Source of the DNA: Jannaschia faecimaris | GTDB lineage: Bacteria > Pseudomonadota > Alphaproteobacteria > Rhodobacterales > Rhodobacteraceae | Reading direction: 5' to 3' | DNA length: 64,000 nt | Assembly (NCBI RefSeq): GCF_900107415.1 | Contig: NZ_FNPX01000015.1 | Span: forward strand, 1 to 64,000 | In this document: one piece after another, positions 39,306 to 50,525 of the stretch | Layout: each line of letters begins with the position of its first letter | Position numbering within the stretch: position 1 is the stretch's first letter | Notes under the pieces: generated by a model | The model's input: the letters and a program-made list of their open reading frames with translations, nothing else | The model's database searches: none | What the model was told of the DNA's origin: nothing | Translations under genes and position numbers: made by a program

Positions 39306-39450
39306 GATGTTCCTCCCAAGAACGGTACAAGAGCCCGTGAACGAGCCCCGTGTGCCGCGATGGTACGCCGACGGTATTGAATAATTCAAGGCTATTGCAC
39401 GTATTTCTGTTATAACATCATACTATGTTTTGGTCATGTGGAGGATGTCC

Positions 39451-40347
39451 GTGAGCGGAAGTCTCAGGTTACGCCAGTTGGAGGCACTGAAAGCAGTGGC
39501 ACAGCATGGCTCGATGACCCGCGCCGCCGGGGATCTTGGCGTTTCCCAGCCTGCCGTCAGCCGCCTGATCGCGGATCTGTCGACCGAACTTGGGTTCACC
39601 CTGCTCGACCGCCGGGATGGGCGCCTGGTTCCGACGCAGGAAGCACGCTACATCCTGCCCGATATTCGGCGGGTCGTAGACCTGATGGCGCATATTTCGG
39701 AAACCAGCCGCGGCCTGAATGAACGCAAGGCGGGACATCTGCGCGTGGCCTGCCTGCCCGGATTCGCGACAAGCCATCTGCCGGGTGTCGTGTCGAAATT
39801 CCTTCATGCCAGACCGGACGTGACCATCACCGTGGAACCGGACCGACCCGAGCGCATCCTCGAATGGATCATCGGGGAGCAATACGATTGCGGCATCACG
39901 GATTCCTTCGAGGGACACCCCGCCATCGAGAGCGAGACGATTGCGGTCCGCTCCGTCTGCGTGTTTCCAAAGGATCATAGATTCGCGGCATTGGATCGGG
40001 TGACCGCGCAGGATCTGCACGGCGAGCGGCTAATCCATGCACGGCGCGACTCTCCATTCTATCGTCGGCTGCTGGAAACCTTTACGCAGGCCGCTGCGGT
40101 GCCCCGCCCCGTGATCGAGGTGCGCCAGTTCACCGCCGCCTGCGAGTTTGTCGCCCTCGGCGAGGGCATTTCGGTCGTCAGTGAGTTGGACGCGCTGACC
40201 TACGCCGGGCGCGTCGCCTACCGCCCTTATGAACCCGCCGTACCGCATCGCCTGTCGCTGGTGCGACCGATCCACAAGACACCGTCGCTTATCACGCTGG
40301 AATTCATGGAAAGCCTGTTCGATAGCCTTCGCCCGCTTGCCGCCTGA
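39451..40347 (+). CDS. LysR-family transcriptional regulator
   Basis: The GTG at 39451 is preferred because GGAGG lies six bases before it. In-frame ATGs exist at 39430 and 39445. The 298-residue protein has the HTH LRQLEALKAVAQHGSMTRAA and LGVSQPAVSRLIADLS, then a ligand-binding domain (HLRVACLPGFATSHLPG…). It is divergent from ugpB with an AT-rich 145-base gap that contains a TTATAA-like element, so it probably controls the ugp operon. The inducer is unknown. Confidence 0.88.
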   Translation: MSGSLRLRQLEALKAVAQHGSMTRAAGDLGVSQPAVSRLIADLSTELGFTLLDRRDGRLVPTQEARYILPDIRRVVDLMAHISETSRGLNERKAGHLRVACLPGFATSHLPGVVSKFLHARPDVTITVEPDRPERILEWIIGEQYDCGITDSFEGHPAIESETIAVRSVCVFPKDHRFAALDRVTAQDLHGERLIHARRDSPFYRRLLETFTQAAAVPRPVIEVRQFTAACEFVALGEGISVVSELDALTYAGRVAYRPYEPAVPHRLSLVRPIHKTPSLITLEFMESLFDSLRPLAA

Positions 40348-40368: not shown

Positions 40369-41469
40369 TTAGTTTCGTTCGGCAGTGGTGATGGAGGTCT
40401 GGCCGATCTGCGCGAGGGTGATGCTCGTCTCGGTCTTCAACACGTTCCAGAGTTCGGATAACCCCTCTTCACCCCCTGCCGCGATGGCGAATTGCAGAAT
40501 GCGCCCGAAGAATGTGAAATTCGCGCCTTGGTTGAACGCCTTCACGACATCCTCCCCACTACGCAGGCCCGTGTCATAGAATAGGGGGTAGTCTTCTCCC
40601 AGTGCCGCCCTGATCTGGGCAAGCGCCGAGATCGGCGGCGGCGCACTGTCCAGTTGCCGTGATCCGTGGCTGGACACCTGGATCGCATCGACGCCCGCCG
40701 CCCGGAGCGCCACCGCGTCGTCGACGTCGAGAACGCCCTTCACAACCAGCTTGCCCGGCCACATCTCCCGCAGACGGGCGAGCGTTTCCCAATCGGCCTT
40801 GGCCCGGCTTTCCGTGCGGTCGAAGTCGTATCCGGGCATGTCGAAGTTCGCCATGGTCGGCTTGCCCTTGAACAGCGCTTCAAGCGACCAGCGCGGGTGA
40901 AGCGCGAAATCGATGAACTGACTGGGACCGATGCGGAACGGCATGGTGAACCCATGACGCAGTTCACGCGGGCGCCTCCCCACTTCGGGCACGTCAACGG
41001 TCAGGACGATGGTTTCATACCCGGCGGCCTTGGCACGCTCGACCAACTTGAATGTGCCGACGCCGTCACCGCTGAAATAAAGCTGGAACCAGGCGTTTCC
41101 CTGAGCCGTCTCGATCAGCGGCTCCATAGCGGTCGAGGCGACGGTGGATACGCCGAGGGGCACATTCTCCCGCGCCGCCAGACGCGCCAGCATGAGATCG
41201 GCTCCGGGGGCAGACAGATTGCACATGCCCATCGGGCTGATCCCAAAGGGAACCTTGGCGGTCTGGCCGAAAAGCGGCACCGCCAGCGTTCTGTCACTGA
41301 CGTCCCGAAGGATCCGGGGCGTCAGTTCAAGGTCGTCCAAGGCCGCACGATTGCGCGCGGCCCCGGTTTCCTGGCCCGCAGACCCGTCGATATAGTCGAA
41401 CACCATCCACGGCAGGCGCCGCCGCGCCAGGCGTCGCGCGTCCGCTGCGGAATGAATGCCAACTGCCAC
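40369..41469 (-). CDS. FMN-dependent alpha-hydroxyacid oxidase/dehydrogenase (candidate sulfolactate dehydrogenase)
   Basis: A 366-residue LldD/glycolate-oxidase-fold enzyme. Features are WMVFDYIDGSAGQET, PFGISPMGMCNLSAPGADL (FMN), LTVDVPEVGRRPRELRHGF, VVKGVLDVDDAVALRAAG, the catalytic His in VSSHGSRQLDSAPP, and FYDTGLRSGEDVVKAF. The family oxidises 2-hydroxyacids to 2-oxoacids. It starts three bases after the end of the sulfopyruvate decarboxylase beta gene and is the last gene of the sulfonate operon. I infer that it oxidises sulfolactate to sulfopyruvate, the substrate of that decarboxylase. Lactate or another 2-hydroxyacid remains possible. Confidence 0.75.
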   Translation of the reverse strand: MAVGIHSAADARRLARRRLPWMVFDYIDGSAGQETGAARNRAALDDLELTPRILRDVSDRTLAVPLFGQTAKVPFGISPMGMCNLSAPGADLMLARLAARENVPLGVSTVASTAMEPLIETAQGNAWFQLYFSGDGVGTFKLVERAKAAGYETIVLTVDVPEVGRRPRELRHGFTMPFRIGPSQFIDFALHPRWSLEALFKGKPTMANFDMPGYDFDRTESRAKADWETLARLREMWPGKLVVKGVLDVDDAVALRAAGVDAIQVSSHGSRQLDSAPPPISALAQIRAALGEDYPLFYDTGLRSGEDVVKAFNQGANFTFFGRILQFAIAAGGEEGLSELWNVLKTETSITLAQIGQTSITTAERN

Positions 41470-41472
41470 CGA

Positions 41473-42027
41473 TCAGCTCGCCACAGCTTCCATGAACCGA
41501 TGACGGATCACGACGGGGTCCATGGTGATGACCGGCAGCTTGATGTTGCCGCTGTCGCATTTCACGACGATCACGGTCATCTTCTTGCTGTCGATGGCCG
41601 CTTGCAGCACCTTGCCTGTGTCCACGTCCTTACAGACGACGACATTCTCGCAACCGCAGGCCTCGGCCACCTTTTCCAGCTTGGTCTTCTTGCCGGCATA
41701 GGTGGGCTGATCGCCGGTGGAACCGTAGGAGCCGTTGTCGATGATCAGCAGGACAAAGTTGTCGGCCACGTTATTGGCGATCGTTGGCAGCGTGCCCAGG
41801 TTGGTCAGGACGGACCCGTCGCCGTCGATCGAGATCACGGTCTTCGACTGCGCCAGCGCAAGGCCGAGGCCGATAGACGATGATAGGCCCATCGTGCCCA
41901 GCATGTAGAAGTTGGTCGGCTGATCATCGATCATGTGCAGCTCTTGGCTGGGCAGACCGATATTGCAGACGACAAGTTGATCCCTCAGGATCGGGGCGAT
42001 TTCTCTCAGGATTTCAGAACGGATCAT
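41473..42027 (-). CDS. comE: Sulfopyruvate decarboxylase, beta subunit
   Basis: Start at 42027 overlapping the comD stop (ATGA). The 184-residue TPP-binding subunit has LGTMGLSSSIGLGLALAQ and SIDGDGSVLTNLGTL followed by LLIIDNGSYGSTGDQPTY, the GDG…N thiamine-pyrophosphate motif. Size and split architecture match ComE (phosphonopyruvate/sulfopyruvate decarboxylase beta). With ComD it converts 3-sulfopyruvate to sulfoacetaldehyde plus CO2. Phosphonopyruvate as substrate is less likely because no PEP mutase gene is near. Confidence 0.87.
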   Translation of the reverse strand: MIRSEILREIAPILRDQLVVCNIGLPSQELHMIDDQPTNFYMLGTMGLSSSIGLGLALAQSKTVISIDGDGSVLTNLGTLPTIANNVADNFVLLIIDNGSYGSTGDQPTYAGKKTKLEKVAEACGCENVVVCKDVDTGKVLQAAIDSKKMTVIVVKCDSGNIKLPVITMDPVVIRHRFMEAVAS

Positions 42028-42530
42028 TGGTCGCCGTAGCCTCCCCAGAAGTTGGCGTCGGTCAGGATTGCGACCGGCTTTTTGGACATGAAGGTGTATT
42101 TCAGGATGTTGTCGAACTCTTCGACATCCTTCTGCCAATGGAAATGGTAAGTCGGGATGTTGAGTTGTGCGAGCAGTGCCTTGGTATGCACTGCCATTTC
42201 AACCTGGCAGGAGACCGGCTCGCGCAATTCACCGCGATACGAAATCAGCATCGGCAGGGGCATGCGGTAGAACTGGGTCAGCGTCGCCAGCGTGTTGATC
42301 GTCACGCCGATGGCCGTGTTCTGCATGATGATCATCGGGCGTTTGCCGCCCATCCACGCGCCCGCGCACAGGCCCATGCCCTCGTCTTCCTTGTTGGCGG
42401 GGATGTGAAAAATTTCCGGCCGCGCTTCGACTTCTTCGATCACGCCGGCCAGTTGTTTACAGGGAACGGTGGTTACGAATGACACGTCATTCGCCACCAG
42501 ATCGTCCACGATTCTCTTGTCAATGCTCAA
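42024..42530 (-). CDS. comD: Sulfopyruvate decarboxylase, alpha subunit
   Basis: A 168-residue pyrimidine-binding subunit. VSFVTTVPCKQLAGVIEEVE, PANKEDEGMGLCAGAWMGG (conserved Glu that activates TPP) and MQNTAIGVTINTLATLTQFY are typical of ComD. It forms a heteromer with ComE, encoded immediately after with a 4-base overlap. It lies 36 bases downstream of the universal stress protein gene. Confidence 0.87.
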   Translation of the reverse strand: MSIDKRIVDDLVANDVSFVTTVPCKQLAGVIEEVEARPEIFHIPANKEDEGMGLCAGAWMGGKRPMIIMQNTAIGVTINTLATLTQFYRMPLPMLISYRGELREPVSCQVEMAVHTKALLAQLNIPTYHFHWQKDVEEFDNILKYTFMSKKPVAILTDANFWGGYGDQ

Positions 42531-42566
42531 GGTTCGCTCCTTCGCGAAGGGTTGGATGGATAGGGG

Positions 42567-42980
42567 TCAGGTCGGGTTTCGGACAACATGGACCGCACAG
42601 TTTGCATGCCGCACCACGCGCGCAGCGGTTGAACCGAGAAGGAAATCGACCAGCCCCGGTTTGTGGGAGCCGATCACGATGCAGTCGATCTTCTGCTGTT
42701 TGGCCACGTCGACGATGGTGCGCCCGCTGTGGCCCTTGACGATCATGCCGGTCACGCCCGGCATGTCCTTGACGCGTTCGGCCAGCTTGGCCTCGGCGCG
42801 GTCGAACGCTTCCTGTACGACACCCTCGTCCAGATATGCGCTGACCGAGCCTTGTGGTGCTTCGTGAACGTGCAGCGCGGTAATCTTGCCCCCGTCGGAC
42901 ACAAGCGCCTGCGCCACGTCCAGCGTGGCACTGGCAATCCCGTGGTCAAGGGCCATGGGAACTAGAATATTGTTATACAT
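42567..42980 (-). CDS. Universal stress protein (UspA domain)
   Basis: A 137-residue protein with start at 42980, overlapping the alcohol dehydrogenase stop by eight bases. The Usp fold is MYNNILVPMALDHG … ITALHVHEAPQG … DCIVIGSHKPGLVDFLLGSTAARVVRHANCAVHVVR, with the GSHKPG…GSTAARVVRHA ATP-binding pattern. It sits inside a catabolic operon, between two metabolic genes. Single-domain Usp genes are often found with TRAP transporters, where an ATP- or AMP-sensing role has been suggested. Confidence 0.85.
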   Translation of the reverse strand: MYNNILVPMALDHGIASATLDVAQALVSDGGKITALHVHEAPQGSVSAYLDEGVVQEAFDRAEAKLAERVKDMPGVTGMIVKGHSGRTIVDVAKQQKIDCIVIGSHKPGLVDFLLGSTAARVVRHANCAVHVVRNPT

Positions 42981-43962
42981 CAGAGGGCTCCAATATAATC
43001 TTGGGGGCCGCGACCGTGCCCGCGCGAATGTCAGAGAAGGCCTGCTGACCATTCGCAAGTGGCCGTTGTTCCGTCCAGTCGAGCGATCCAAGACGTCCGT
43101 CGAAGATCGCCGCTGCGGTGTCGCGGAAATCCTGCGCCGTATAGGTATAGGTTCCGACAAACGTAATTTCCTGAAGGGTCATCCGGCGGATATCGAGCCC
43201 GCCCGTCCCCTCGCCCAAACCGATATGCATGATGACGCCGCCGGGCCGGGCAATCGCGGTCGCATCCGCCCGCGTCGCTGCATACCCAACGCCGTCAATG
43301 ATCAGGTCGGCCTGTGTGACCGTGCCGGGAGCCACGGTGTCGAAGCCGTCGATCCGGTCCAACGTTGCACGGCGCGTCGCGTTCGGTTCCGCCACGGTGA
43401 TCTTCGTGGCACCAAAGGCTCGCAGGGCCAGAGCTGCGCCAACTCCGATCGCACCGCCACCTATGACGTGGCACTCGGCATCGGCCAGCGGGTATGACAG
43501 GGCCGCAGTGCCAAGACGCACGGCGTGCCAGCCGCAGGCCAACGGCTCGGACAGCGCGGCCTTACGCAGGGGCACGTCGGCGGGTACGACGACCAGATTT
43601 TCGTCGCGCATCACGACCCGCTCGGCAAAGGCCCCTTCGCGCGGCGGCATGGAAATGATCATCCGTTCGGGGCAGAGGTTGTCCCGGCCCGCCATGCAGG
43701 CGCGGCACGTTCCGCAGGTTACCAGCGGATTGATCGTGACCCGTGCCCCGTCGCGCGGCCCGCCGATGATCGTGCCTGCCGCCTCGTGCCCCAGGATCAG
43801 CGGCGCGGGCCGGCGCTCGTCATGCCCCAGGAAGGCATGCATGTCCGATCCGCATATGCCCGAAGCCTGAACTTGGATAAGGCTTTGGCCCGGCCCCGGT
43901 TCCGGCTCCGGCATATCGCGGTAGACGAGCGTTTCGACAGCTTCGTAAACAAGTGCTTTCAT
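42973..43962 (-). CDS. Zinc-dependent alcohol dehydrogenase (HpsP-like candidate)
   Basis: Start at 43962, overlapping the SDR stop by four bases. The 329-residue MDR enzyme has GICGSDMHAFLGHDE and LGHEAAGTIIG (catalytic Zn), the structural-Zn Cys cluster TCGTCRACMAGRDNLCPERM, and the Rossmann VIGGGAIGVGAALAL. It lies with an HpsN-like gene and an SDR gene, as in described DHPS clusters that carry hpsNOP, so oxidation at C2 of DHPS or interconversion of its enantiomers is a reasonable inference. Confidence 0.82.
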   Translation of the reverse strand: MKALVYEAVETLVYRDMPEPEPGPGQSLIQVQASGICGSDMHAFLGHDERRPAPLILGHEAAGTIIGGPRDGARVTINPLVTCGTCRACMAGRDNLCPERMIISMPPREGAFAERVVMRDENLVVVPADVPLRKAALSEPLACGWHAVRLGTAALSYPLADAECHVIGGGAIGVGAALALRAFGATKITVAEPNATRRATLDRIDGFDTVAPGTVTQADLIIDGVGYAATRADATAIARPGGVIMHIGLGEGTGGLDIRRMTLQEITFVGTYTYTAQDFRDTAAAIFDGRLGSLDWTEQRPLANGQQAFSDIRAGTVAAPKIILEPSDV

Positions 43963-44720
43963 TTTGCGGTATACCCCCCGTCGACCATGAGGACCTGTCC
44001 CGTCACGTAGGCCGAAGCGTCCGAACAAAGGAAAAGCAACGGCCCGTCGATGTCCTCCAGTGCGCCGTTGCGTCCGATGCAGGTTTGTGCGGCATTGCGT
44101 GCGGCCCGCTCGGGGTCGGAAAAGACCGGGCCGGTCAGCTCCGTCGGAAAGAACCCCGGACCGATTGCATTTGCCGTGATCCCGTCCGTTGACCATGCCT
44201 CGGCCATGGCGCGGGTCAGTTGGCCGACGCCCGCCTTTGACGCGCCGTAAGCTATCCCGCCGGGAAAGGCGCGTGTCGTCTGCAGGGACGCGAAGTTAAC
44301 GATCCGGCCCCAGCCGCGCGCTTTCATTGCCGGAACCAATGCCTGGCTCAGGAAGAATGGCGCGGCGAGATTGAGATTCATCGTGACGTCCCAACCGTCG
44401 GCGGTAACGTCGTCCGCGGCCTCTCGCGTGTTGATCCCGGCGGCATGGACCAAGATGTCGGGTGCCCCGAAGGGCTGCGAGACATCAGTCGCAATCTTCG
44501 CAATCGCATCGCGGTGCGACAGATCCGCCGCGACGGTCGCCGCACGCTCGCCGGTCTTGGCCGCCCAATCGGACAGTGCGTCGGCCCGACGGGCAACGCC
44601 CACGACCCGCGCGCCCGCCGCCGCCAGGGCGACGGCGGCGCGCTGCCCCAGACCGGAGCTTGCCCCCGTCACACAGGCGACGCGACCGGTCAGGTCGAAC
44701 AGGGCGCGTGGGTCACTCAT
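43959..44720 (-). CDS. Short-chain dehydrogenase/reductase (HpsO-like candidate)
   Basis: A 253-residue classical SDR: NAD(P) motif GRVACVTGASSGLGQ, LVHAAGIN, catalytic Ser in VNFASLQTT, YxxxK as YGASKAG, and the C-terminal VTGQVLMVDGGYTAK. The start overlaps the hpsN-like stop by eight bases. Context suggests it oxidises a DHPS enantiomer to the ketosulfonate in partnership with the adjacent Zn-dehydrogenase. The substrate is inferred, not seen. Confidence 0.82.
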   Translation of the reverse strand: MSDPRALFDLTGRVACVTGASSGLGQRAAVALAAAGARVVGVARRADALSDWAAKTGERAATVAADLSHRDAIAKIATDVSQPFGAPDILVHAAGINTREAADDVTADGWDVTMNLNLAAPFFLSQALVPAMKARGWGRIVNFASLQTTRAFPGGIAYGASKAGVGQLTRAMAEAWSTDGITANAIGPGFFPTELTGPVFSDPERAARNAAQTCIGRNGALEDIDGPLLFLCSDASAYVTGQVLMVDGGYTAK

Positions 44721-46020
44721 GCGACGTTAGGTCGAAGTTCTCGCCAGGGAAGTACTTGGCAAGGCGCACATCGGCGGCGCGGGCATGACCCTCCATGCCC
44801 TCCAGGCGGGAAATCCGCGCGGTCGCTTCCGCAACGCGCTTGGAGCCTTCGCGGGTGGCCTGCTGCCAGGTGACGATCTTCATGTACTTGTGCACCGAAA
44901 GCCCGCCGGTATAGGACGCGGCCCCCGATGTCGGCAGCACGTGGTTGGTGCCCGACGCCTTGTCTCCATAGGACACCGTCGTCTCCTCTCCGAGGAACAG
45001 CGAGCCATAGCAGGACAGGCGGTCGAGCCACCACGGCAGATCCTCCGCTTGAACGGTCAGGTGCTCAGGCGCATAATCGTCGGAGCAGGCGGCCATTTCC
45101 TCGCGGTCGGCACACAAGATCACCTCGGCATAGTCGCGCCAGGCGGCGGCGGCGTTGTCGCGGTTCACCTCGGGCAGGTCCGCAATGAGGTCCGGCACGC
45201 GCTTCATCACGTCCTCGGCGAGGTCGCGATCGTCGGTGACCAGCCACACGGGCGAATTGTAGCCATGCTCTGCCTGGCTCACCAAATCGGTCGCAACGAT
45301 GTGCGGGTCGGCCGTCTTGTCGGCCAGGATCAGGCTGTCGGTCGGACCGGCGATCATGTCGATGCCGACACGCCCGAAAAGGATGCGCTTGGCCTCGGCC
45401 ACGAACTGGTTACCGGGGCCGACCAGGATGTTGGCCTTGGGCAAGCCAAACAGGCCGAATGTCATCGCCGCGACGCCCTGCACACCGCCAAGGGCCATGA
45501 TCGTGTCGGCACCGCAGATGTGGGCTGCATAGACGATTGCCGGGGCGACGCCCACGCCGGGACGCGGCGGGGATGTCGCCGCGATATGCGTGCACCCGGC
45601 AACCTTGGCCGTTGTTACGGTCATGATCGCGCTGGCGATGTGGCTGTAGCGCCCGCCGGGGATGTAGCAGCCCGCCGCGTCCACCGGGATGGCCTTCTGC
45701 CCCGCCCGCAGGCCAGGAACGATCTCGTACTCGAAATCGCTGACAGTGGCCTTTTGCGCTTCGGCAAAGCGGCGCACGTTGTCGTGGGCGAACTGAATAT
45801 CTTCCTTCAGCTTTTGTGGAACAAGGTCGCAGGCCGTGGCAATCTCTTCCTCCGTGAGGATGATGTTGCCATCGTACTTGTCGAACTTGGCCGCATATTC
45901 GCGGGCCTTGTCGTCGCCGCCCGCCTCGATGTCGGACAGGATGCCCTGCACCAACTCGTGGACGTCCGATGCGCCCGATTGCGCCGTCAGTGTCGCTTTC
46001 TTTAGATAGTCTCGTGCCAT
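44713..46020 (-). CDS. hpsN: Sulfopropanediol 3-dehydrogenase-like protein (HisD family)
   Basis: A 435-residue HisD-fold enzyme. Conserved elements are DLVSQAEHGYNS (Gln and His Zn ligands), DDYAPEHL (catalytic Glu-His), SYGDKASGTNHVLPT (Asp ligand) and MEGHARAADVRL (His ligand). The GGLSVHKYMKIVTW segment differs from the HisD sequence at that place. No other his gene is near. The genes around it are a TRAP transporter and sulfopyruvate decarboxylase. HpsN is a known HisD homologue that oxidises (R)-DHPS in two steps to sulfolactate with NAD. I assign that role by context. True histidinol dehydrogenase is the main alternative. Confidence 0.78.
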   Translation of the reverse strand: MARDYLKKATLTAQSGASDVHELVQGILSDIEAGGDDKAREYAAKFDKYDGNIILTEEEIATACDLVPQKLKEDIQFAHDNVRRFAEAQKATVSDFEYEIVPGLRAGQKAIPVDAAGCYIPGGRYSHIASAIMTVTTAKVAGCTHIAATSPPRPGVGVAPAIVYAAHICGADTIMALGGVQGVAAMTFGLFGLPKANILVGPGNQFVAEAKRILFGRVGIDMIAGPTDSLILADKTADPHIVATDLVSQAEHGYNSPVWLVTDDRDLAEDVMKRVPDLIADLPEVNRDNAAAAWRDYAEVILCADREEMAACSDDYAPEHLTVQAEDLPWWLDRLSCYGSLFLGEETTVSYGDKASGTNHVLPTSGAASYTGGLSVHKYMKIVTWQQATREGSKRVAEATARISRLEGMEGHARAADVRLAKYFPGENFDLTSHE

Positions 46021-46032
46021 GATTTGACCGCC

Positions 46033-47361
46033 CTATTTATAGATATCAGGAAGCATCGTCGTGGAGATCGCCGGGATATAGGCAATCATCAGTACCACGA
46101 TCAGCATGAAGAAGACGAAAGGAACCGCGCGCCAAGCGATCCGGAGGATAGACTCGCCCGTGATGCCCGACACCACGAACAGGTTGAGGCCCAGCGGCGG
46201 CGTGATGAAGCCTACGCCCAGGGCCGTGATCATCATGATGCAGAACTGGATTTCGTTCATCCCGATGCTGTCGGCCAGCGGCTTGAGGATCGGGGCGAGG
46301 ATCACGATGTTGGGCGTGGTCTCCATGACGCAACCCGCCGCGATCAGGATCCCGATCATCATCAGGATCAGTAGCGTCGGATTGTCGGTCAACGCTGTGA
46401 TTGAATAGACGAAGCCCTGCGGTACGCCCATGATCGCCAACGCCTGCGCCAGCGGCAGCGAAAACGCAATGATCGGCAGGATGATCCCGTTCACCTTGGC
46501 CGAGGAGATGAGCATCGAGGGGAAGTCAGCCAGCTTCAGCGTGCCGAGGATGAACCCGATGATGATCGTCACGACAACGGCAGTCGCACCCGCCTCGGTC
46601 GGCGTCAGGCGGCCCGAAAAGATGCCGTAGAAGATGATGCCGGGCACGATGAACGCGTACCAGCCCGAGGCCAGCGCGCTACCGAGGTTGGAGAAGTATT
46701 CCCCCATCGACAGATTGCCGCCGCCTTCGTAGCCGTAGATCCGGTTCACCACGATGTTGGTTACCAGAATGGACGTCAGGATCAGGATGCCGGGGATCAA
46801 GGCCGCCAGGAACAGCGTAGACGCGGATATGCCAAGCACGAGACCGATGATGATATACGCGATGGATGGCGGGATCAGGATACCGGTACAGGCACCCGCC
46901 GCGACAAGCGCGCAGGCATAAGGCCGCGGGTAGCCGCTCTCGACCAGCCGGTCGATTGTCATGCGGCCCACCGCGGCGGCACCCGCCGCGTCGGAGCCGG
47001 AAATCGCCGCGAACATGCCGCAGACCAGAACCGTGGCCGAGCCGAAGCCGCCCTTGGCGAACTGGGTCAGCGCCTCGGCCACGTCAAGAAACTTGCGCGA
47101 CAGCCCGGTGCGCACCAGCACGTCACCCGTCAGGATGAACAGCGGCACGGCCGTCAGCGCGAAGGCGTCGATGCCGTGGAACAGGCTCTCGCCCACCAAC
47201 GCCAGCGGCAGGTCGCCCGACATTAACAGCATGGTAATCGCGGCGACCCCGATCGAGGCCCAGACCGGCACGGCCAGCGCGCAGAGCGCCACGAAGATGA
47301 GCACCGGCAGGTAAAAATCCCAGCCCAACTCGACCGCTTGATTAAGGGTATTCCAAAGCAT
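46033..47361 (-). CDS. TRAP transporter large permease (DctM/HpsM-type)
   Basis: A 442-residue permease with about 12 helices. Family motifs are ALTAVPLFILTGDVLVRTGLS, SGSDAAGAAAVGRMTID, ACTGILIPPSIAYIIIGLV, TPTEAGATAVVVTIIIGF and GFITPPLGLNLFV. It works with the small permease just upstream and the binding protein at 47991. Sodium-coupled uptake of an organic anion fits a sulfonate such as DHPS. It ends 12 bases before the HpsN-like gene. Confidence 0.93.
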   Translation of the reverse strand: MLWNTLNQAVELGWDFYLPVLIFVALCALAVPVWASIGVAAITMLLMSGDLPLALVGESLFHGIDAFALTAVPLFILTGDVLVRTGLSRKFLDVAEALTQFAKGGFGSATVLVCGMFAAISGSDAAGAAAVGRMTIDRLVESGYPRPYACALVAAGACTGILIPPSIAYIIIGLVLGISASTLFLAALIPGILILTSILVTNIVVNRIYGYEGGGNLSMGEYFSNLGSALASGWYAFIVPGIIFYGIFSGRLTPTEAGATAVVVTIIIGFILGTLKLADFPSMLISSAKVNGIILPIIAFSLPLAQALAIMGVPQGFVYSITALTDNPTLLILMMIGILIAAGCVMETTPNIVILAPILKPLADSIGMNEIQFCIMMITALGVGFITPPLGLNLFVVSGITGESILRIAWRAVPFVFFMLIVVLMIAYIPAISTTMLPDIYK

Positions 47362-47372
47362 CTTCTATCCCC

Positions 47373-47885
47373 TTAATCGAACAGCTTATCGCCTTCGTAG
47401 ACGGGTGTACCGTCTCGAAGGCTGCGAAAATCACGAACAAGAGATTGCGTCAGACGCAGCAGCATCAGCGCAAACCCGATCGGCACCGCCAGCAGGAACC
47501 ACACCAGCGAGATGCGCAGGCCATGGCTGACCGAACCGAATTTCCACGAGACGGCGACGGTCTCGAACGACCAGTAGAGTGCGATGATGGCGACGCCGAC
47601 CATCACAAGGTCACCGAAGATATAGAGCAGCGCCTTCAGGCGCGGGCTGAGGTAATGCATGATCACGTCGATGCGGATATGCGCACGATCCTTGATCGCG
47701 GCCGCGGCACCGATCCAGGCGAGGTAGATGAATGAATAACGCACAACCTCTTCGCCCCAGATCGACGAATAGGAGAAAATTTCCCGACGCAGCACTTCGA
47801 CTGCCATCGTCATCACAAGCATCACGTAAAACACCAGAAGCGCCCATCGCTCCGCGTCACGGTTAAGCCGTTGCAGTATCTTCAT
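47373..47885 (-). CDS. TRAP transporter small permease (DctQ/HpsL-type)
   Basis: Start at 47885 with GAGGGG six bases before the ATG. The 170-residue protein has four helices. The signature is YSSIWGEEVVRYSFIYLAWIG (DctQ: W-x-E-E…R) and GLRISLVWFLLAVPIGFALM. It lies 11 bases before the large permease. Confidence 0.9.
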   Translation of the reverse strand: MKILQRLNRDAERWALLVFYVMLVMTMAVEVLRREIFSYSSIWGEEVVRYSFIYLAWIGAAAAIKDRAHIRIDVIMHYLSPRLKALLYIFGDLVMVGVAIIALYWSFETVAVSWKFGSVSHGLRISLVWFLLAVPIGFALMLLRLTQSLVRDFRSLRDGTPVYEGDKLFD

Positions 47886-47957
47886 CACGGACCCCTCGTG
47901 TAGCCCCGCCACCGGTCGGGCACGGCCAGGATTTGCGGGAAGTTCGAAAACAGATTA

Positions 47958-47985
47958 GCGGGCGGGTGCAATCGCACCCGCCCGC
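47958..47985 (-). promoter_or_regulatory. Intercistronic stem-loop after dctP
   Basis: A perfect 12-bp stem GCGGGCGGGTGC / GCACCCGCCCGC with a 4-base loop lies five bases after the binding-protein stop and 72 bases before the small permease start. On the reverse transcript it is followed by TAATCTG with no U-tract, so it should protect the upstream mRNA or cause partial termination, giving more binding protein than permease. Confidence 0.75.
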
Positions 47986-47990
47986 GAGTC

Positions 47991-49139
47991 TTATGCGTCG
48001 TTTACGTAGTAACGGCCCATTGTGCCGGCAGCTTCTTCAAGCTTGGCGAAGGTATCCATGGATCCGGCCAGTTCGGTCTTGAAGCTGTCCCAATCGGTCA
48101 ACTGGTAACCGCCAGTGGCCTTCCACTCGGCCAACTGATCGTCGGACAGCGTGTGGAATTCGACACCGGCCTTGCGCAACTCGGCCATGGCGTAGTTGCG
48201 CGCGGATGGCACCTTGGCCAGGTTTTGGTGGCGGGTGATCTCGGCGGCTTCCATGATGCCGTCCTGAACATCGGCGGGCATCGAGTTGAACCACTCCAGG
48301 TTGCACGAATAGACCTGAGAGTCCGGCACCGCCTGCGTGAAGGTCACGTGGGACAGGATGTCCTTGAAACCGAACACGTAGAGCGCGCCCACCGACGGGT
48401 CGAGCGCGTCGGCCACGCCCTGCTTGATCGCCGAGGGCGTCTCGCCCCAAGCCACCGGCGTCGGGTTGGCACCGACCATGCGGTAGTATTGCTGCAACAT
48501 CGCCGATCCGGGGACGCGGAACTTCACGCCAGCCAGATCGCCCGGCGTCATCACGGGGCCCGAACCTCCGGCACGGACGGCGACGACGCGGGGGTCGATG
48601 TTGATGTAGAGGAGCGGTTTGAAACCGGCAGCTTCGACCTTGGGGTTCACTTCCTGCGCCCACACATCGGAATGCACGAGGTTGGTGAAACGCTGGTTCG
48701 AGCCGCACAGATACGGAAGGTTGATCAGGTCGGTGACGGGCGCGAAGGGCGCGAAGTTCGAGATCGAGTGCTGTGCGGCCTGGATCGTGCCACCCTGCAC
48801 GGATTGTACCAGTGCGCCGCCCGCACCCAGCTGCCCGCCGGGGGCCAGCTTGACATAGATTTTGCCATTTGTGGCGTTCTGGATGTTTTCCTTCAGGTCC
48901 AGTTGCATGATCGGATAGCTACGCGTGGCACCCAGCACATAGGCGGTGGCGACCGTCATCACGTGCTCGGCTGCGGCTTCGCGGTCACGCTCTTCGTTGG
49001 CTGTCTGCGCGGCTGCCTCGGTCGACCAGAGCGACCCGGCTGCACCCGCAACGAGGGCAGCGGTGAAACTGCCGGTCCCGGCGAGCTTCAGGAAATTGCG
49101 ACGCTCGGCCGAAATGAGTTCTTTGGTGTTTTTATCCAA
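47991..49139 (-). CDS. TRAP transporter substrate-binding protein (DctP/HpsK-type)
   Basis: A 382-residue protein with a Tat-type signal peptide: AERRNFLKLAGTGSFTAALV with the RRNFLK twin-arginine motif, cleaved near STEAAAQ. The mature domain has KIYVKLAPGGQLGAGGALVQSVQGGTIQAA and GVKFRVPGSAMLQQYYRMVGANPTPVAWGET, typical DctP, with the conserved Arg in KFRVPGS for the carboxylate or sulfonate. Tat export means it is folded in the cytoplasm. It is the second gene of the sulfonate operon, after the 57-residue protein. Confidence 0.9.
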   Translation of the reverse strand: MDKNTKELISAERRNFLKLAGTGSFTAALVAGAAGSLWSTEAAAQTANEERDREAAAEHVMTVATAYVLGATRSYPIMQLDLKENIQNATNGKIYVKLAPGGQLGAGGALVQSVQGGTIQAAQHSISNFAPFAPVTDLINLPYLCGSNQRFTNLVHSDVWAQEVNPKVEAAGFKPLLYINIDPRVVAVRAGGSGPVMTPGDLAGVKFRVPGSAMLQQYYRMVGANPTPVAWGETPSAIKQGVADALDPSVGALYVFGFKDILSHVTFTQAVPDSQVYSCNLEWFNSMPADVQDGIMEAAEITRHQNLAKVPSARNYAMAELRKAGVEFHTLSDDQLAEWKATGGYQLTDWDSFKTELAGSMDTFAKLEEAAGTMGRYYVNDA

Positions 49140-49172
49140 TGTGGTGTCCTCCCTGGACTGCTTTTCGCCGAG

Positions 49173-49346
49173 CTACTTTCGAGCGTCGGCCTCCCTTTTT
49201 AGAATGGCTATGACGAACAGAACCGCGACACCCGACAGGACCAACATCTCTCCGACATCATTCAGGAAGCCGGAATTGGACATGGAGCCAAGCCCCACGT
49301 TCACAGCAAAAACCACGAATAATATGATCGCCCCGATAAGCGGCAT
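49173..49346 (-). CDS. Small two-helix membrane protein (57 residues), first gene of the sulfonate operon
   Basis: Start ATG at 49344-49346 with GGGAGGAG before it (a near-perfect ribosome site), stop TAG at 49173-49175. The product begins MPLIGAIILFVVFAVNVGLG, a membrane helix. A short polar loop SMSNSGFLNDVGE and a second helix MLVLSGVAVLFVIAILK follow, then a charged tail READARK. It lies between the LacI promoter region and dctP, on the dctP strand, 33 bases before that gene. I recognise no family. It is too short to be found by usual gene-length cut-offs. Confidence 0.75.
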   Translation of the reverse strand: MPLIGAIILFVVFAVNVGLGSMSNSGFLNDVGEMLVLSGVAVLFVIAILKREADARK

Positions 49347-49385: not shown

Positions 49386-49424
49386 ATGTAAGCCTTTACA
49401 TTTTTAATAAGCAAGTCTTTACAT
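49386..49424. promoter_or_regulatory. Candidate operator of the divergent LacI regulator
   Basis: ATGTAAGCCTTTACAT (49386-49401) is a near-perfect inverted repeat of ATGTAA. A further half-site CTTTACAT follows at 49417-49424, about 31 bases away centre to centre. Both lie in the AT-rich gap between the 57-residue protein gene and lacI-type gene at 49500. LacI-family operators are such short palindromes. Binding by this regulator is inferred from position. Confidence 0.6.
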
Positions 49425-49499: not shown

Positions 49500-50525
49500 A
49501 TGAATATCAAAAGGCTGACGCCAACCCTTCAGGACGTTGCGACCGCTGCGAATGTGTCGACAGCAACGGTATCGCGCTGCCTGAACTTTCCCGACAAAGT
49601 CGCGGAGCGGACGCGGACCAAGGTTTCGACCGCAATCCGGGACCTTGGCTATACCCCGAACTTCGGGGCAAGGGCGATGGCGGCCCGGCGGACGCATACG
49701 ATCGGCGCGATCATACCCACCATGGACAATGCGATTTTCGCGCGCGGGCTGGAGGCGTTTCAGAACGAGTTGCGCCTGCACGGTTTCACGATGCTGGTGG
49801 CGAGCACATCCTATCGGCCTGAGATCGAGGAGGAGCAAATTCGTGCCCTGGTGTCGCGAGGGGCGGATGCCTTGCTGCTGATCGGGCATGCACGCCACCC
49901 GGAAATCTATCGCTTTCTTGAGGCGCAAGGCGTTCCCGCACTGGTGACATGGGCCTTCGATGCCGACCTTGCGCGCCCATCGATCGGCTTCGACAACCGC
50001 GCTGCAATGCGCGACATGGCAACCAGGGTCATTGAACTGGGCCACCGCCGACTGGCCCATATCTCGGCCGATACCAAACACAACGATCGTGCAGAGGCAC
50101 GGCTGCTGGGCATTCAAGACGCGATGCTTTCTGCCGGGCTGAATTTGGATGATCTGCGTCTGGTCGAGACAACCTACGGGATCGAGGAGGGAGCCGTCGC
50201 ACTGGAAGCGCTGGTGACGACCGGCCCCAGCCCGACCGCGATCTTCTGCGCGAACGACGTGTTGGCGGTCGGCGCGCTGCGGCGCGCGCGTGAGTTGGGG
50301 GTATCGGTGCCGGGTGAGGTGTCCATCGTCGGCTTCGACGACATCGAACTGGCGCAAATCGCCTATCCGGCGTTGACCACAGTACATGTGCCGCATCGAG
50401 AGATGGGCCGCCGCGCGGCGCGTGCCCTCGTCAATCTGGTCAAGACCGGAGCGCCGTTCGAGTCGGTCGAACTCGAAACCTGGCCGGTATTCCGCGACAC
50501 GTTGGGTCGGGTCAGCGACGACTGA
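49500..50525 (+). CDS. LacI-family transcriptional regulator
   Basis: A 341-residue protein. The HTH is TPTLQDVATAANVSTATVSR followed by hinge helix FGARAMAARRT. The periplasmic-binding-like effector domain shows TIGAIIPTMDNAIFARGLEAFQ, GHRRLAHISAD, PTAIFCANDVLAVGALR, VSIVGFDDIELAQIAYPALTTV and EMGRRAARALVNL. It is divergent from the sulfonate operon and most likely represses it until DHPS or a product such as sulfolactate appears. Downstream it is convergent with hyuB, six bases apart. Confidence 0.92.
   Translation: MNIKRLTPTLQDVATAANVSTATVSRCLNFPDKVAERTRTKVSTAIRDLGYTPNFGARAMAARRTHTIGAIIPTMDNAIFARGLEAFQNELRLHGFTMLVASTSYRPEIEEEQIRALVSRGADALLLIGHARHPEIYRFLEAQGVPALVTWAFDADLARPSIGFDNRAAMRDMATRVIELGHRRLAHISADTKHNDRAEARLLGIQDAMLSAGLNLDDLRLVETTYGIEEGAVALEALVTTGPSPTAIFCANDVLAVGALRRARELGVSVPGEVSIVGFDDIELAQIAYPALTTVHVPHREMGRRAARALVNLVKTGAPFESVELETWPVFRDTLGRVSDD

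Follow-up and report, generated by a model that had tools for sequence, protein, structure and literature searches.

Within a 64,000-nucleotide stretch of Jannaschia faecimaris DNA (positions 1 to 64,000 of contig NZ_FNPX01000015.1, assembly GCF_900107415.1; hereafter, the window), a run of genes on the minus strand from 40369 to 49346 appears to encode the breakdown of 2,3-dihydroxypropane-1-sulfonate (DHPS). Judged from sequence, we are highly confident that this run is the hps operon of Roseobacteraceae in its Xsc-route form, in which DHPS carbon would pass through sulfolactate, sulfopyruvate and sulfoacetaldehyde. The products of hpsN, hpsO and hpsP match the solved DHPS dehydrogenases of Ruegeria pomeroyi and D. 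shibae and retain the residues that were mutated in the publications, the three genes lie together with transporter genes and a regulator gene, and both xsc and pta are present in the same genome. The hps operon is the standard, known marine roseobacter system for algal DHPS, so that our finding is correct but ordinary; DHPS operons of this kind were already known, because the hpsNOP-slcD-comDE-xsc route and its genes have been published (PMC4334477 and PMC11382572). A preliminary description of this DNA had listed eleven genes in the run, and all eleven were present where it had placed them. The divergent LacI-family regulator gene hpsR (49500-50525) is a part of the operon that was missing from that list. 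The features are as follows.

49173-49346, minus strand: small membrane protein of 57 amino acids, unnamed, adjoining hpsK (open reading frame).
47991-49139, minus strand: hpsK, substrate-binding protein of a tripartite ATP-independent periplasmic (TRAP) transporter, with a twin-arginine-like leader (TRAP_S1, dctP; N-terminal sequence).
47373-47912, minus strand: hpsL, TRAP small permease with a probable ATG start at 47885 (PRK09877 below cut-off; position; sequence).
46033-47361, minus strand: hpsM, TRAP large permease (TIGR00786 above cut-off; dctM family).
44713-46020, minus strand: hpsN, R-DHPS 3-dehydrogenase with the HisD fold (PDB 8wwe; Histidinol_dh; key residues).
43959-44720, minus strand: hpsO, R-DHPS dehydrogenase of the short-chain dehydrogenase/reductase type (PDB 8wwf; key residues).
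42973-43962, minus strand: hpsP, S-DHPS dehydrogenase of the zinc-dependent alcohol dehydrogenase type (PDB 8wwd; key residues).
42567-42980, minus strand: hpsQ, universal stress protein, UspA (Pfam Usp; R. pomeroyi counterpart).
42024-42530, minus strand: comD, sulfopyruvate decarboxylase alpha subunit (TIGR03845).
41473-42027, minus strand: comE, sulfopyruvate decarboxylase beta subunit (TIGR03846).
40369-41469, minus strand: slcD, sulfolactate dehydrogenase dependent on flavin mononucleotide (FMN) (FMN_dh; 78% identity to the Roseovarius nubinhibens ISM enzyme).
49500-50525, plus strand: hpsR, LacI-family regulator, divergent from the operon (Pfam LacI, Peripla_BP; R. pomeroyi counterpart).
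49387-49400, strand-neutral: predicted HpsR operator, TGTAA-N4-TTACA (sequence match; conservation).

The preliminary description had proposed that the operon carries a path from DHPS through sulfolactate and sulfopyruvate to sulfoacetaldehyde and that the FMN enzyme supplies the sulfolactate step, and both proposals are supported by homology and genome content. ComE scored above its curated cut-off (TIGR03846, 245.8 vs 221.5 bits). The comD and comE genes overlap by 4 bases, and slcD follows comE after a gap of 3 bases. SlcD combines close homology to the R. nubinhibens enzyme with an association with sulfonate genes: in R. nubinhibens ISM, the FMN enzyme to which it is 78% identical lies behind comDE and a TctC-TctA-TctB transporter. 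Its nearest relative in the PDB is (S)-mandelate dehydrogenase, which is a membrane-associated enzyme. By our own reasoning, R-sulfolactate shares the spatial form of L-lactate, since its sulfonate arm takes priority over the carboxylate, and an FMN enzyme specific for the L form would therefore be suited to the R-sulfolactate made by HpsN. SlcD has been described as a membrane-bound sulfolactate dehydrogenase of R. pomeroyi (PMC4334477) and is labelled R-sulfolactate dehydrogenase in a figure legend (PMC11131964).

We asked whether the FMN enzyme could instead be a general L-lactate or glycolate dehydrogenase merely housed in the operon, with a ComC- or SlcC-type enzyme oxidising sulfolactate. 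SlcD does belong to the FMN_dh family, in which lactate and mandelate dehydrogenases are its closest curated and solved relatives. However, it scored beneath the curated lactate cut-offs (248 of 376, 214 of 550 and 126 of 645.5 bits), and of two FMN paralogues found elsewhere in the genome, 31-34% identical to SlcD by BLASTP, one is above the cut-off for the L-lactate dehydrogenase subfamily PRK11197. Position points the same way. From 309 slcD relatives in named genomes we kept the best 80, a sample that leans to close relatives; where 1.3 kb or more of upstream sequence was available (70 loci), comDE lay directly before slcD in 61. The sole Ldh_2 gene in the genome, the ComC type, reached 161 of the 500 bits required for L-sulfolactate dehydrogenase, and ComC was rejected as the sulfolactate step (the SlcC type was not searched). 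These data make a general lactate or glycolate enzyme improbable and argue for SlcD as the predicted sulfolactate dehydrogenase.

The rest of the pathway was looked for in the whole genome. As the preliminary description had expected, xsc is encoded outside the window: it was found on another contig, contig 42 (900 bits, cut-off 676.4), side by side with pta (322.6 bits, cut-off 311.2). Behind this pair follow genes for a molybdopterin oxidoreductase, a 4Fe-4S protein and a DmsC-type anchor (contig 42, 129500-140300, L103), which would fit SoeABC; no curated family names them so. Upstream of the pair lie a MocR-type regulator gene and an aminotransferase gene, a combination also seen in taurine loci. 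Among 120 genomes of the family, comE was found in 22 and xsc in 69; in support of the Xsc route, xsc was present in 19 of the 22 genomes with comE and in 50 of the 98 without it (Fisher p 0.003, a test that ignores relatedness). The CuyA route was rejected, since TIGR01275, to which we take CuyA to belong, had no match in the genome in a search that matched 12 of 14 control genomes.

In PMC11382572, 272 organisms with HpsN are divided among several routes, including Xsc (37), CuyA (51) and SuyAB (93), and the statement in the preliminary description that SuyAB is the commoner continuation in DHPS clusters is thus borne out (93/272 vs 37/272). Accordingly, we considered whether in J. faecimaris sulfolactate might be degraded mainly by the SuyAB lyase, with comDE-slcD as a side branch. 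Besides the prevalence of that route among HpsN organisms, one GD_AH gene is present in the genome, and fused SuyA-SuyB proteins are on record, with four members (PMC11382572). However, this sole GD_AH gene encodes a single protein of 550 residues with SAF and GD_AH domains, which shares 31% identity with the SuyB-like protein encoded on a Paracoccus plasmid, where the pair consists of separate proteins of 96 and 393 residues; a close SuyB was not found in the genome, and SuyA alone was not searched. This dehydratase gene also stands next to another TRAP system, in a locus (contig 42, 9700-18800, L127) that further holds genes for a PhyH protein and for a shikimate-dehydrogenase-like protein. 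On the single chain, the low identity and the other TRAP neighbourhood, SuyAB was rejected as the main route, and we regard it as very unlikely.

The dehydrogenases at the head of the pathway are well matched by solved structures. The best match of HpsN was PDB 8wwe, with 765 bits, as against 532 bits for 8v35, which is named sulfopropanediol 3-dehydrogenase and is presumably the C. pinatubonensis enzyme, and 261 bits for the best histidinol dehydrogenase. The code 8wwe denotes R. pomeroyi HpsN (PMC11131964). HpsN is reported to be marked by the motif G-R-Y-A/S-H and HisD by G-S-A-P-L, with a catalytic Glu-His pair, Asp and Lys (PMC11382572). In the window, HpsN reads GRYSH at residues 123-127 and GSAPL is not present; it retains the catalytic E319 and H320, the substrate-site residues D353 and K354, and the zinc ligands Q249 and H252. 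HpsO matched PDB 8wwf with 419 bits and retains S145, Q147, Y158 and K162, and HpsP matched PDB 8wwd with 458 bits and retains H59, E60 and E139 (numbered from the HpsP Met); the catalytic and binding residues used for the comparison were taken from PMC11131964. That the HisD-fold enzyme is a histidinol dehydrogenase, and that the operon serves histidine or some other substrate, has almost no probability left: the protein does exceed the TIGR00069 hisD cut-off and its homologue is labelled hisD in a public Leisingera record, but its motif is that of HpsN, its best matches are solved DHPS dehydrogenases, and a second HisD-like gene on contig 23 is the better Histidinol_dh match (551.8 vs 449.8 bits), though this gene reads GLASY at the motif and thus lacks GSAPL as well as the HpsN histidine.

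The gene order is conserved among relatives. In 53 of the 64 loci with at least 5 kb upstream, hpsNOP is present and comDE lies directly before slcD, which is not a chance arrangement. Counted singly in the same 64 loci, comDE directly before slcD was found in 55, hpsNOP in 55, a divergent LacI homologue in 50 and TRAP genes in 37. Some loci are without hpsKLM (L003, L010, L014 and others); there, hpsN is the immediate neighbour of hpsR, and the stretch gave no TRAP genes. No clear transporter for such loci emerged from the open reading frames left of the operon in L003, L014, L039 and L016.

The intergenic region at the head of the operon was analyzed for regulatory sites. The palindrome TGTAA-N4-TTACA at 49387-49400 occurs in exact form once in the window, against an expectation of 0.01. 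We compared the gap that separates hpsR from its neighbouring gene in 51 cases, comprising the window and the 50 of the 80 loci in which both ends were found: the palindrome was exact in 43 and had one mismatch in 8, and in each gap it was reached by at most 5 of 200 simple shuffles. Among 134 fetched loci, 64 carry an exact palindrome, one apiece, and as read from the coordinates, these lie mostly at the hps head. In L016, L020 and L029, the palindrome is just upstream of hpsO; the genes there run hpsO-hpsP-slcD, and hpsN and comDE were not found. On a Paracoccus plasmid (L132, 8601-8614), the palindrome lies not before hpsN but before an ABC (ATP-binding cassette) transporter operon beside a LacI gene, which hints that this transporter carries DHPS there. 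A literature search for the palindrome consensus found no paper. HpsR may bind the palindrome and repress. Scanning the operon head for promoters yielded a single site, on the opposite strand and near chance, and a terminator was not found. At the other end of the operon, a LysR regulator gene (39430-40347) is convergent with slcD. It was considered as a pathway regulator; among the 80 related loci, which include some short ones, no match of at least 35% identity over at least half its length occurred, and it is probably unrelated to the pathway.

Several points weigh against the assignment to an Xsc-route hps operon. What our data establish directly is gene identity, gene order, conservation and genome complement, and the activities, the regulation and the electron acceptor are predicted. 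ComD passed the TIGR03845 cut-off by a narrow margin of 2 bits (150.2 vs 147.95), and in the other 9 of the 70 loci examined above for comDE, slcD occurs without comDE directly before it. The Fisher test on comE and xsc ignores relatedness, and 3 of the 22 comE genomes (G032, G043 and G086) have no xsc match. A sulfolactaldehyde dehydrogenase was not pinned down in the genome, where ten SSADH matches, two of them short, were all below the cut-off. Finally, the 19-kb xsc region contains one palindrome match with two mismatches, where 1.08 would be expected by chance; it is therefore without a good match, and joint control of hps and xsc is unsupported.

The 57-residue membrane protein next to hpsK looks like a real gene. 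It adjoins hpsK in all 37 loci that hold both hpsK and hpsM, although two copies are broken or partial (L060 and L078). A hidden Markov model matched it in 21 of the 120 family genomes, its own included, and hpsK adjoined it in 21 of 21, a count that starts from matches to the small protein and not from hpsK. The ratio of nonsynonymous to synonymous substitution rates (dN/dS) relative to the window copy was 0.02-0.35 in the 16 of 31 pairs for which it was computable, mostly with high dS, the other 15 pairs being saturated. The protein is about 60 residues long in most relatives. It has no NCBIfam family, and the Pfam hits were weak, with none above the cut-off for the window copy. In R. pomeroyi, the locus tags of hpsR and hpsK are consecutive, and the part of PMC4334477 consulted lists no gene between them; in the Leisingera record, the counterpart is labelled hypothetical protein. 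A literature search on DHPS TRAP transporters with a small membrane protein found no account of it. We tentatively propose that the protein may belong to the DHPS TRAP transporter as a dedicated fourth component, serving the assembly, stability or gating of HpsLM, and that HpsR may switch the whole operon at TGTAA-N4-TTACA; this combined proposal is possible, with the odds somewhat against it. The small protein, unnamed among the hps genes in the literature searched, and the HpsR operator, which was likewise not found there, are modest leads.

Taken together, the genes outline the following predicted pathway. HpsR, a LacI-family protein and probably a repressor, would act at the putative operator. 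HpsKLM, together with the small membrane protein, would import DHPS. HpsN would convert R-DHPS to R-sulfolactate, and HpsO (R) and HpsP (S) would oxidise DHPS to sulfolactaldehyde, the presumed substrate of a further oxidation by an aldehyde dehydrogenase encoded elsewhere. SlcD, an FMN-dependent relative of mandelate and lactate dehydrogenases, would turn sulfolactate into sulfopyruvate and probably pass the electrons to quinone. ComDE would decarboxylate sulfopyruvate to sulfoacetaldehyde, from which Xsc and Pta, encoded on the other contig, would yield sulfite and acetyl-CoA. The sulfite may then be oxidised by the SoeABC-like enzyme encoded behind xsc-pta.

DHPS is an abundant sulfonate that passes from algae to bacteria at sea, and such operons thus steer marine carbon and sulfur. 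The value of the present case lies in a genome that has the Xsc route and in which no CuyA-family gene was found, and in two testable details, namely the small protein that accompanies the TRAP transporter and the operator predicted for HpsR. It lies also in correct annotation, since the Leisingera record still has hpsN as hisD and slcD as alpha-hydroxy acid oxidase.

The operon can be compared with four known systems. In R. pomeroyi DSS-3, the genes hpsR, hpsK, hpsL, hpsM, hpsN, hpsO, hpsP, hpsQ and slcD are SPO0590-SPO0598, with hpsR of the LacI family and hpsQ a UspA protein (PMC4334477); the regulator, the TRAP genes, hpsN, hpsO, hpsP, the UspA gene and slcD are as in the window. However, the tags of hpsQ and slcD are consecutive there, so that no comDE lies between them, whereas the window has comDE, and R. 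pomeroyi is assigned to the CuyA route (PMC11382572), whereas our genome has no TIGR01275 match. R. nubinhibens ISM (L033) resembles the window in having comDE and the 78% identical FMN enzyme, but a tripartite tricarboxylate transporter (TTT) lies between comDE and slcD, and hps genes were not found in the fetched flank. Its slcHFG transporter is a TTT system (PMC5812351), and the branch from sulfolactate through sulfopyruvate and sulfoacetaldehyde to Xsc has been ascribed to this organism (PMC6278857). For Jannaschia sp. CCS1, Ruegeria sp. ANG-S4 and Granulosicoccus, PMC11382572 gives hpsNOP, slcD, comDE and xsc as the genes by which DHPS is degraded over the Xsc route; the enzymes and the route to sulfoacetaldehyde are the same as those predicted here, with the difference that xsc in J. 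faecimaris is on another contig. Homologues of slcD with 60-80% identity are also borne on plasmids of Leisingera and a few others; besides NZ_CP081081.1, 12 more plasmid records hold one. NZ_CP081081.1, from Leisingera caerulea S141, carries all twelve genes in the same order as the window, including the divergent LacI gene and the gene for the small protein annotated as hypothetical, and differs in being plasmid-borne and in its annotation.

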